DNA of 64,000 nt. Source: Alphaproteobacteria bacterium. Lineage in GTDB: Bacteria; Pseudomonadota; Alphaproteobacteria; Geminicoccales; Geminicoccaceae. The translations under genes and the position numbers were made by a program. The notes under the pieces were generated by a model. The model searched no databases, was not told where the DNA came from, and saw only the letters and a program-made list of their open reading frames with translations. The stretch lies in contig JALUAG010000077.1 in assembly GCA_027045875.1 (NCBI GenBank), forward strand, positions 1 through 64,000, in the 5' to 3' direction. Positions 2,579-37,639 of the stretch are shown here, one piece after another; within the stretch, counting starts at the first letter, position 1; every line of letters begins with the position of its first letter.

Positions 2579-3361
2579 ATGCGTGGACTGACCGGAAAGC
2601 GGGTGCTGATCACCGCCGGCGCGGCCGGCATCGGGCGGCGGACGGCGGAGGCCTTCGCCGAGGCGGGGGCGCGGGTGTTCCTGTGCGACATCGACGAGGC
2701 GGCGCTTTCCGATCTCGCCGCCGCACGGCCGGAAATCGGCGCCCTGCGGGCGGATGTGGCGGTCGAGGGAGACGTCGAGCGATTGTTCGAGGCGGCCGCG
2801 GCGGCGCTCGGCGGGCTCGATTTCCTGATCAACAACGCCGGAGTCGCCGGCCCCACCGGCCCCGTCGAATCCCTCGCCCTCGAGGACTGGAAGCGCTGCC
2901 TCGCCGTCAATCTCGACGGCATGTTCCTGTGTACCCGCCGCGCCGTACCCCTGATCGAAGCCGCCGGCGGCGGCGCCATCGTCAACCTGTCCTCGACCGC
3001 CGGGCTGCACGGCTTTCCCAACCGCACCCCCTACGCCACCGCCAAATGGGGGGTGATCGGCCTCACCAAGACCCTGGCCATGGAGCTCGGCCCGCGCGGC
3101 ATCCGGGTCAACGCCATCTGCCCGGGGCCGGTGGCGGGCGCCCGCATCGACCGGGTGATCGAGGCCGACGCCCGGGTGCGCGGCCGTCCGGTGGAGGAGG
3201 TACGGGACCGCTATCTGCGGACCAATGCGCTCCGCACCTTCATCGACGCGGCGGACATCGCCGACATGATCCTGTTCCTCTGCTCGGATCTCGGCCGCCG
3301 CGTCAACGGCCAGGCGATCGCCGTCGACGGCTACACCGAGACGCTGCGCACCGGCCCCTGA
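2579..3361 (+). CDS. Short-chain dehydrogenase/reductase (SDR)
   Basis: This is a classical 260-residue SDR that would oxidise or reduce an alcohol or ketone with NAD(P). The cofactor loop reads TAGAAGIG at about 12-19 rather than the usual TGxxxGIG. An aspartate at the end of the second strand (LCDID, 36-39) favours NAD(H). NNAG lies at 85-88, and Ser139, Tyr152 and Lys156 form the catalytic set. It follows the esterase by 61 bases on the same strand and is the last gene of the first cluster. A role in carnitine or hydroxy-acid oxidation is a guess from context only; 3-hydroxyacyl or sugar dehydrogenases of this family look similar. Confidence 0.85.
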   Translation: MRGLTGKRVLITAGAAGIGRRTAEAFAEAGARVFLCDIDEAALSDLAAARPEIGALRADVAVEGDVERLFEAAAAALGGLDFLINNAGVAGPTGPVESLALEDWKRCLAVNLDGMFLCTRRAVPLIEAAGGGAIVNLSSTAGLHGFPNRTPYATAKWGVIGLTKTLAMELGPRGIRVNAICPGPVAGARIDRVIEADARVRGRPVEEVRDRYLRTNALRTFIDAADIADMILFLCSDLGRRVNGQAIAVDGYTETLRTGP

Positions 3362-3400
3362 GGGCGCCCCGCGGCGATGCGGCGTCGAGCCGCGGCCCTG

Positions 3401-3416
3401 TTAACAACTGCTTAAC
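3401..3416 (+). promoter_or_regulatory. Perfect CtrA-type box TTAA-N7-TTAAC
   Basis: The bases TTAA, seven bases CAACTGC, then TTAAC match the full CtrA recognition sequence of Alphaproteobacteria exactly. The box lies 62 bases upstream of the ATG of the PAS-domain gene in a short AT-rich patch of an otherwise GC-rich intergenic region. It also reads as an imperfectly symmetric palindrome (GTTAA-N7-TTAAC). CtrA control of the PAS gene is inference. Confidence 0.6.
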
Positions 3417-3478
3417 CTTCGGGGGCCATCTTGTCTTCCGTTCCCGCTGTCGTGTGTTCGTGAAGATGGGAGGTGCCG

Positions 3479-4051
3479 ATGGTCCTGACCTTGTCGCGGC
3501 CGAAGGAGCGGACGCGACCCGCCCGCCGTGTGGTGACGCCGACCGGCCGCGAGCGTTTCTTCCGGGAAGAGGACACGATCGTCAGCAAGACCGATGTCCG
3601 TGGCCGGATCACCTACGCCAACGAGGTGTTCATCTCGGTGTGCGGCTACAGCGAGGCGGAGCTTATCGGGGCGCCGCACAGCATCGTCCGCCATCCGGCG
3701 ATGCCGCGCTGCATCTTCCAGCTCCTGTGGGAGGAAATCGCCGCGGGCCGCGAGGTCTTCGCCTTCGTGCTCAATCTCGCCAAGAACGGTGACCATTACT
3801 GGGTCTTCGCCCACGTGTGCCCGACCTTCGACGAGAGTGGGCGGATCGTCGGTTATCATTCGAGCCGACGGGTTCCGTCCCGACCCGCCCTGAGCAAGGT
3901 CGAACCCCTCTATCGGGAACTCCTCGCCGTCGAACATGAGGCCTCCGACCGGAAGGCAGGGTTGGTGGCCGGCCGTGCCCGTCTCGATGCCGCACTCGAG
4001 CCCTATGGCGGCTCCGCCAACGCTTTCGCCTTCGCACTCCTCGGTTTCTGA
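3479..4051 (+). CDS. Single PAS-domain protein, Aer-like sensor module
   Basis: This 190-residue protein consists mainly of one PAS domain (about residues 30-130) that resembles the FAD-binding PAS of the aerotaxis receptor Aer. The stretch Y-A-N-E-V-F followed by CGYSEAELIGAPHSIVRHPAMP, and later AKNGDHYWVFAHV, are the tell-tale segments. After the PAS only about 55 residues follow. There is no transmembrane, HAMP, methyl-accepting, kinase or GGDEF output domain, so it must signal through a partner. I chose the ATG at 3479 rather than the GTG at 3473 because GGGAGG ends five bases before it. A CtrA box stands upstream. Likely a soluble redox or oxygen sensor linked to motility or cell-cycle signalling; the output is unknown. 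Confidence 0.8.
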   Translation: MVLTLSRPKERTRPARRVVTPTGRERFFREEDTIVSKTDVRGRITYANEVFISVCGYSEAELIGAPHSIVRHPAMPRCIFQLLWEEIAAGREVFAFVLNLAKNGDHYWVFAHVCPTFDESGRIVGYHSSRRVPSRPALSKVEPLYRELLAVEHEASDRKAGLVAGRARLDAALEPYGGSANAFAFALLGF

Positions 4052-14321: not shown

Positions 14322-14341
14322 CCTTAAGGAGCCGTTTAAGG
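14322..14341. promoter_or_regulatory. Palindrome CCTTAA-N8-TTAAGG upstream of GAF-GGDEF gene
   Basis: A perfect 6-bp inverted repeat with an 8-base spacer lies 22 bases upstream of the GTG start of the diguanylate cyclase gene, in one of the few AT-containing spots of the region. The half sites contain TTAA as in CtrA boxes, but the spacing is 8 rather than 7. It may be an operator or part of the promoter. Confidence 0.35.
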
Positions 14342-24557: not shown

Positions 24558-24855
24558 TCTCGACGCTTCCGCCCCCTCGCCTGCCGTCTCCCCCCGAGCT
24601 CTTGCTACTGAGCGCCGCCCCGACTGTAAAGCCACGGCTCGCGGGCGCTGCCCCGCCTCCGGCACGCTCCTTCGCGCCCGCGCCGCCACCGGATCCTTCC
24701 GCAGATACCTACAGCGACAAGACGGAAAAAAGTTTCCGACAATTTTAACTTTCCTTTTTCCTTCAACGACTTGATTTTTTCACTGTGTCTGTTAACTATG
24801 CCGTGACTTGAACGTGCGCTCGAAAAGTTGTCATAACCGGGTACGAGTTCCGGCG
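24558..24855. other. Intergenic region with AT-rich island, hairpin and sigma70-like promoter
   Basis: This 298-base gap separates the divergent PotA-type gene and the GGDEF gene. Its right half, from about 24718 to 24800, is the most AT-rich stretch of the window. It contains a hairpin CGGAAA-AAAG-TTTCCG at 24723-24738. A possible promoter consists of TTGATT at 24771-24776, a 17-base spacer and AACTAT at 24794-24799, pointing right. TTAAC half-sites occur at 24745 and 24792. I see no gene. Confidence 0.45.
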
Positions 24856-25692
24856 ATGCAGATGCACATCCTCCTGGTTCAGCCTGCGGGCTGGAGCCTG
24901 CCGTGGCTGACCGCGATCCTGCGGGAAGCCGGGCTCGACGGCTATCGCCTCGAACACGCCGCCGGGCTGCCCCAGGCGATCGAGCGGCTGGTGGATCAGG
25001 GCGCCGACCTCGTGCTGCTGGACCGGGCGGCGGTGGAGGAGCTGGACAGCGCCCTCATGCGCCTGCAGTGCATCGCTCCCGGCACGCCGGTGGTGCCCTT
25101 CACCACCCTGGGTTCCGAGACCCTCCTCGACCGCGAACTGCTGATCCGCTGCATCGTCCGCATCTGGCGGGCCAGCCAGAACCAGCGGCGGCTCGTCCAT
25201 CGGGCCACCCACGACAGGCTGACCGGCCTCGCCAACCGCTGGCTGCTCGAGGAGAAGGTGGTGGACGCGGTGGCCCGCGCCCGGCGCCGCGGCGAGCCCG
25301 GCGCCCTCGTGTTCCTCGATCTCGACGGTTTCAAGGGGATCAACGACCGCTACGGGCACGACGCCGGCGATTTCGTGCTCAAGACGGTGGGCGAGCGGCT
25401 GCGCCGGATGGTGCGGGAGAGCGACACCGTGGCCCGCTTCGGCGGCGACGAGTTCGTCGTGCTGCTCGAGGAAGTGCGCGGCGAGAAGAGCGCCGCCAGG
25501 GTCGCCCGCAAGCTCGAAGACGCGATCGCGGAGCCGGTTTCCCTGCCCCACGGCCCGGTGACCATCCGGGCGAGCACCGGGCTGTCGCTGTTCCCCTCCC
25601 AGGGCACCGATCTCCACGATCTGGTGCGGCGCGCCGACCGGCTCATGTACCACAACAAGCTCAGCCGCCGCCTCGAGAACGCCGTCGCCTGA
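24856..25692 (+). CDS. Receiver-like domain plus GGDEF diguanylate cyclase
   Basis: This 278-residue protein begins with a response-regulator-like domain (MQMHILLVQPAG to about residue 115) that keeps an aspartate in VLLDRAAVE but lacks several acidic receiver residues, so phosphorylation is doubtful. The second half is a GGDEF domain with the intact motif FGGDEF and an RESD inhibition site before it, so cyclic di-GMP synthesis is likely. The ATG at 24856 has only a weak ribosome site; ATG 24862 is an alternative. It is preceded by the AT-rich promoter region. Together with the PAS and GAF-GGDEF proteins it makes three signalling genes in 21 kb. Confidence 0.83.
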   Translation: MQMHILLVQPAGWSLPWLTAILREAGLDGYRLEHAAGLPQAIERLVDQGADLVLLDRAAVEELDSALMRLQCIAPGTPVVPFTTLGSETLLDRELLIRCIVRIWRASQNQRRLVHRATHDRLTGLANRWLLEEKVVDAVARARRRGEPGALVFLDLDGFKGINDRYGHDAGDFVLKTVGERLRRMVRESDTVARFGGDEFVVLLEEVRGEKSAARVARKLEDAIAEPVSLPHGPVTIRASTGLSLFPSQGTDLHDLVRRADRLMYHNKLSRRLENAVA

Positions 25693-37308: not shown

Positions 37309-37639
37309 GTCCCGAGGCTCCGTCTTCGGTCACGGAAAGGCGGGCGCATCCTGACCAGCCTCTCCGCCGCTGGCAAGCCGACAGGCCGTCGCCGCCGGCC
37401 GGCGAAGCGCTACCCTTGGGTACGCACCGTCAGACGGGCGACTACCTTCACGCGAATAGCCAATGGTTGTATAAGGAGGGCCGTATTCTAATTTAACGAA
37501 GTCGCAAGAGAACGAAATTAACGTGTTGGGTGGAACGTCAGAGCCGGGTGGTGCCGACTATCGCGCGAGCGCAACCGTCGACCGGCCTGACCAGACCGGA
37601 GCGGGTCCCGTACCCGGCCCGGCAGGAAAGGAGTGAGTC
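37309..37639. other. Intergenic region between puuD and XRE gene, with inverted repeat
   Basis: This 331-base gap separates divergent transcripts. Its middle (about 37440-37530) is AT-rich and contains TAATTT at 37489-37494 and AAATTA at 37515-37520, an exact 6-bp inverted repeat with a 20-base spacer, plus two TTAACG direct copies inside it. This may be an operator of the XRE regulator that follows, or a divergent promoter. AAAGGAG ends eight bases before the XRE start. I see no gene or RNA. Confidence 0.35.

Follow-up and report, generated by a model that had tools for sequence, protein, structure and literature searches.

Does a pair of TTAA motifs in front of a small PAS-domain gene place that gene under the master regulator CtrA, and if it does, what kind of sensor would be regulated? 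The question arises from a 64,000-nucleotide stretch of DNA, here called the window, from a Geminicoccaceae bacterium related to Azospirillum and Caulobacter. An initial annotation had reported an exact TTAA-CAACTGC-TTAAC site at 3401-3416, 62 bases before the PAS gene, and the sequence agrees. With one leading G added, the site reads GTTAACAACTGCTTAAC at 3400-3416, and the 62 bases are counted to the ATG at 3479. It has half-sites GTTAA and TTAAC around a spacer of exactly 7 bases and lies upstream of a gene start; as a near palindrome (GTTAA-CAACTGC-TTAAC) it matches the pattern on both strands, and it is given no strand here. TTAA-N7-TTAAC occurs in the window at this position alone and was found 0 times in 100 dinucleotide shuffles. 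We regard 3400-3416 as a predicted CtrA-binding site.

One objection is that the TTAA pair arose by chance, or belongs to an AT-rich promoter core, and that CtrA has no role in it. The window holds only eight TTAAs, at the coordinates given in the initial annotation, and all eight are intergenic in DNA that is 91% predicted coding, so that promoters here would display TTAA by composition. The counts in the whole genome (G000; 3.53 Mb in 110 contigs) argue otherwise. The search for TTAA-N7-TTAAC proposed by the initial annotation gave a strongly positive result, with 18 forward and 18 reverse matches, i.e., 36 strand-wise matches at 23 distinct sites, compared to none for the reversed pattern of the same composition and none for the 8-base spacer form, TTAA-N8-TTAAC. 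When one mismatch to GTTAA-N7-TTAAC was allowed, there were 45 sites in G000 (3 for the reversed pattern) and 41 in the sister species G002 (4 reversed). All but 2 of the 45 G000 sites are intergenic according to a crude codon-composition gene caller, and for 34 the orthologous gene in G002 has a counterpart site at an equivalent offset, with the caveat that in 3 of these 34 positional matches (L173, L176, and L179) the gene used does not start downstream of the site. Identity across the 34 site pairs was 0.976 in the half-sites and 0.735 in the spacers, a comparison biased by the preselection of both pair members at no more than one mismatch. The exact spacing, the empty reversed control, and the positional conservation together make the chance or composition explanation very improbable. 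Each of the 31 family genomes searched has at least one match to TTAA-N7-TTAAC. In the genus of the window, the matches greatly exceed the control (36, 23, and 28 strand-wise matches, compared to 0, 2, and 2); outside that genus the excess varies and disappears, for example, in G005 (42 compared to 43) and G015 (8 compared to 8).

The genome does not lack ctrA, the absence of which the initial annotation had named as a refutation of its proposal. A CtrA orthologue is encoded at G000:C12:6049-6735; it is 66% identical to the typed Caulobacter CtrA and passes the NCBIfam CtrA equivalog cut-off (389 compared to 350 bits), and its gene carries a box of its own about 55 bases upstream. A homologue of the CtrA inhibitor SciP also passes its own cut-off (134 compared to 100 bits). 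ChpT is the usual phosphate donor for CtrA, and a search for it in G000 gave one match, of 21.3 bits, below the 22.9 cut-off. Several OmpR-type regulators are encoded as well, and one of them, rather than CtrA, might be supposed to bind the GTTAA-N7-TTAAC sites. There is, however, a single CtrA orthologue, and the next-best match to Caulobacter CtrA, an OmpR-type regulator, is only 33% identical. Furthermore, the extracts available of two regulon studies give motility, pilus, c-di-GMP, and signal-transduction genes as known CtrA targets, and the predicted targets here (ctrA, sciP-fliF, flgB, Flp pilin, Tad, and cheY) match those reported (PMC2877005, PMC7232146). We therefore consider it extremely improbable that a regulator other than CtrA recognizes the boxes.

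The genes beside the 23 exact sites, assigned with the same crude gene caller and with Pfam/NCBIfam, are often of the kinds just named, and all are predicted rather than demonstrated targets. They include ctrA; csrA, divergent from flgB-flgC-fliE (the last presumably fliE, as recognized from its sequence); an operon with fliO-fliP, whose first gene is about 300 bases off, with a gene that we take to be ThiF/MoeB-like nearer to the site on its other side; cheY-cheZ; a Flp pilin gene that falls below the model cut-off; a TadG-like gene; PilZ; genes for an oxygen-sensor-type protoglobin-GGDEF-EAL protein, a GGDEF protein, and an EAL-like protein that scores 24.8 bits, below the cut-off of 31.3; an RpfF-like crotonase gene; and the PAS gene of the window. 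Two further genes each have two sites: a BapA/DUF4114 adhesin-like gene, where the sites overlap, and a MotA/TolQ/ExbB-type gene, where both lie in its intergenic region. Other exact sites have neighbors without an evident motility link, i.e., a cytidylyltransferase-like gene, UDG, a QueF-adjacent gene, and unknown genes. The neighbors of the one-mismatch sites include sciP-fliF and genes for a REC-PAS-kinase, a PAS protein, and two proteins that stay below their model cut-offs, namely a second EAL-like protein (19.3 bits) and a LapG-like protease (103 bits, compared to 320). Several conserved sites also adjoin genes without an obvious role in motility, which counts against the reading; examples encode a GNAT enzyme, a GDP-mannose dehydratase, an AMP-binding enzyme, a uracil-DNA glycosylase, and a sulfotransferase. 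In categories picked after the list was seen, 12 of the 22 exact sites outside the window scored, compared to 3 of the 62 window genes (p 1.7e-6; p = 0.0014 when the 44 flanking genes are counted). As a prediction, a genome-wide regulon that links sensory, motility, and c-di-GMP genes to CtrA is well supported by motif counts, conservation, and targets; the c-di-GMP genes that carry boxes sit on contigs other than that of the window.

Several of the loci found in this search have features of their own. Between the divergent csrA and flgB genes (L013, 1039-1806; G000:C30) lies a CtrA box that is kept in G002, and if it is bound by CtrA, a post-transcriptional regulator would come under CtrA; the literature searched contains one paper that mentions CtrA and CsrA together with Alphaproteobacteria and flagellar terms. 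The RpfF-like crotonase gene (L011, 36-1368; G000:C18) lies tail-to-tail with an Hpt-domain gene and has its exact box 132 bases before its start, with a box sequence identical in G002; its product passed the PRK08788 model and failed the RpfF model, and a fatty-acid signal system is possibly under CtrA. Near-consensus boxes are present at both the LapG-like protease (L170, 780-1460; G000:C52) and the BapA-like adhesin (L014, 1651-3015; G000:C30), and the display of the adhesin and the protease that releases it may be under joint control.

Within the window, the initial annotation had read three further TTAA clusters, upstream of signaling genes, as being of the same type, and here the sequence does not bear it out: the gaps are 8, 43, and 21 bases. 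The pair at 14324 and 14336, a TTAA-N8-TTAA (14324..14339, without assigned strand) before the GAF-GGDEF gene, has a spacing that is absent genome-wide in the TTAAC form; the G002 orthologue lacks these upstream TTAAs and has a different 8/10 match 2 bases away. At 24745 and 24792, before the GGDEF gene at 24856, the gap is 43, and G002 keeps both TTAAs at unfit spacings. The same gene is preceded by GTTAACTATGCCGTGAC (24791..24807, + strand), a doubtful weak site with 8/10 matches and with 7/10 at the same offset in G002. This is the only site besides 3400-3416 within two mismatches in the window, and at least two such matches arise in 11 of 100 shuffles. An AT-rich block at 24690-24810, between an ABC transporter operon and the GGDEF gene, contains GGAAAAAAGTT and AACTTTCC and is largely identical in G002. 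The third pair, at 37493 and 37518 before an HTH gene, has a gap of 21; of these two TTAAs, G002 retains the one at 37493 (-234 relative to 37727) and lacks the one at 37518. As for the domain labels, GAF-GGDEF and HTH (XRE-type) hold, while for the gene labeled REC-GGDEF, Pfam finds GGDEF only. That three of the four TTAA clusters precede the three signaling genes is only mildly unusual by a post hoc calculation (P 0.027). In the window, the TTAA pairs upstream of the HTH gene and of both diguanylate cyclase genes are not CtrA boxes and provide no evidence for the regulon, for which the initial annotation had enlisted them.

The gene behind the box (3479..4051, + strand) encodes a protein of 190 amino acids with one PAS domain by Pfam. 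A profile of 13 relatives, built from an alignment (A1) that left out L047 and L048 because of a stop inside the match, has as its best solved match the PAS domain of Escherichia coli Aer (8dik; E 1.6e-37). For what was earlier described as an Aer-like single-PAS protein, a CetB without its partner is the more precise description. The gene order cetB-cetA is reportedly the arrangement of the bipartite energy-taxis receptor, and the CetBA systems of Magnetospirillum gryphiswaldense have it as well (PMC12442639). Among 80 named relatives drawn from the genome collection, 69 have a chemoreceptor signaling motif downstream on the same strand, 484 to 1648 bases past the PAS stop; within 1.5 kb downstream of the window gene and of its orthologues in G002 and the other sister species, G001, no MCP motif was found. 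The neighbors of the window gene are presumably a short-chain dehydrogenase and a glycosyltransferase gene, as recognized from sequence. A paralogue in the same genome (G000:C109:4013-4570) does have such a neighbor: the two genes overlap, and the partner encodes an MCP signaling domain. Since no cetA receptor gene adjoins it, the window gene encodes a CetB homologue that is not a member of a CetBA pair, and it is best described as an orphan cetB, the predicted FAD-PAS half of the bipartite aerotaxis receptor CetBA. An offset comparison with the residue list in PMC12442639 indicates that seven of the eight FAD-contact positions published for CetB2 are kept at a constant offset of 13 (H67, R71, F80, W84, N99, V113, and R130), the exception being Asn55 of CetB2, which is Ser68 here. 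The dN/dS of about 0.19-0.31 between sister species indicates that the orphan cetB is under purifying selection.

How well is the box itself conserved before this gene and its relatives? The G002 counterpart, CTTAAGGATCTGTCAAC, has 8/10 matches (2 mismatches) at the same offset of -79, and the G001 counterpart, ATTAACGGCTGCGCAAC, has 7/10 (3 mismatches) at almost the same offset; the window box is among the 11 of 45 sites without a G002 counterpart at no more than one mismatch. For 13 PAS/cetB genes of the family, the best upstream matches to GTTAA-N7-TTAAC sum to 102, whereas shuffles give 73.8 +/- 2.35 with a maximum of 81; a score of at least 8/10 is reached by 8 of the 13 loci, compared to a shuffle mean of 0.13. 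The enrichment over these loci is strong. In this test the upstream stretch was measured from the start of the match rather than from an annotated start, and seven loci outside the family or distant (L047, L049, L053, L054, L055, L059, and L061) were left out; one of these, L053, carries two boxes at 9/10. Exact boxes precede only two of the 13 genes, that of the window and L058, and both are orphans (2/4 orphan compared to 0/9 paired cetB genes; about 0.08 by chance). L058 (G022:C151), from another genus of the family, is a second orphan cetB with an exact box, GTTAACTTCGGCTTAAC. A broader test covered 79 of the 80 named loci, labeled from record titles, with L083 dropped because only 26 bases were present upstream. 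Outside the family, 9 of 53 alpha-labeled loci reached p<0.05; the summed match was 373 for the alpha-labeled loci, compared to 341 +/- 4.3 in shuffles, and 177 for the non-alpha loci, compared to 168.5 +/- 3.0. Controls with spacers of 6 and 8 were intermediate (359 and 355), and the signal is too weak to claim cetB genes as CtrA targets across the Alphaproteobacteria.

The surroundings of the box bear on whether CtrA would activate the PAS gene. The upstream neighbor (2579-3361) points towards the box and ends before it, so that the PAS gene is the sole gene starting at this intergenic region. A GGGAGG at 3468..3473 (+ strand) is a likely ribosome-binding site, with GAGG kept in G001 and G002. 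In CtrA-activated promoters the site usually lies at -35, as given in the consulted portion of PMC11264516, and by analogy TTAACC (3412..3417, + strand), which contains the right half-site, is suggested as a -35 element overlapped by the box; its AACC is kept in both sister species. No convincing -10 element was recognized upstream of the PAS gene. That, the near-palindromic form of the box, and the capacity of known CtrA sites to repress, as noted in the extracts from PMC6180460 and PMC11264516, would fit a site that binds CtrA and yet mainly represses, or serves no promoter of the PAS gene. We consider such a role quite improbable, given that the PAS gene alone starts here and that activating sites usually lie at -35.

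We think it likely, from sequence comparison, that 3400-3416 binds the CtrA of this genome and switches on the CetB-type gene at 3479 together with motility genes. Phosphorylated CtrA on the box, probably overlapping the -35 element, would recruit RNA polymerase, and if the box sits at -35, transcription would start near 3440. The gene would be turned on concurrently with the box-carrying flagellar, chemotaxis, Flp-pilus, and c-di-GMP genes. By homology, its product would be a small soluble CetB-type PAS protein that binds FAD, responds to redox state or oxygen, and signals to a CetA-type chemoreceptor; as cetA is not adjacent, the orphan would act via the CetA encoded beside the paralogue at G000:C109 or via another receptor. 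What we infer is that CtrA binds here, that it activates instead of repressing, that the box overlaps a -35 element, that the protein holds FAD, and that a CetA is its partner. An extension of this scheme, which we rate as unlikely, is that CtrA determines which oxygen level the swimming cell prefers, in that the extra CetB, made along with the flagellum, replaces the resident CetB on the CetA of the paired CetBA receptor while the protoglobin GGDEF-EAL protein is also made. If true, one regulator would retune both the oxygen sense and the swim-or-stick decision via the same CtrA pulse.

The result is a candidate CtrA regulon (45 sites, 34 of them conserved in a second species) for an uncharacterized alphaproteobacterial family. 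One regulator is predicted to govern aerotaxis sensing and oxygen-sensor c-di-GMP turnover, as well as flagella, Flp pili, and the control of adhesins. What is new is the conserved predicted regulon in this lineage and, within it, an orphan aerotaxis sensor. Our literature search returned no paper combining CtrA with CetB, nor one combining CtrA, aerotaxis, and "CtrA binding", and a direct link between CtrA and aerotaxis appears not to have been described previously in the literature searched.

Both halves of the proposal have counterparts in known systems. Like the CetB of Campylobacter jejuni CetBA and of Magnetospirillum gryphiswaldense CetBA2, the 190-residue window protein is a small soluble Aer-type PAS protein, and the G000:C109 paralogue overlaps its receptor gene as in M. 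gryphiswaldense cetBA2 (PMC12442639, in the part consulted). The window gene differs from these in its lack of an adjacent cetA, in having Ser68 for Asn55, and in the CtrA box upstream. The same source describes M. gryphiswaldense CetB5, likewise a CetB without a CetA partner gene, which adjoins a CheY paralogue and went undetected in the proteome data that this source cites, whereas the window gene has other neighbors (PMC12442639). The CtrA regulons of Caulobacter crescentus, Rhodobacter sphaeroides, and Dinoroseobacter shibae, as far as the cited excerpts go, use the same TTAA-N7-TTAA site and share flagellar, chemotaxis, tad/Flp pilus, c-di-GMP, and ctrA targets with G000 (PMC6180460, PMC2877005, PMC7232146). 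Unlike these three, the G000 regulon is a prediction from sequence, with ChpT not clearly found, and it would add an orphan cetB, a protoglobin GGDEF-EAL gene, csrA, a LapG-like protease gene, and a BapA-like adhesin gene to the shared targets.
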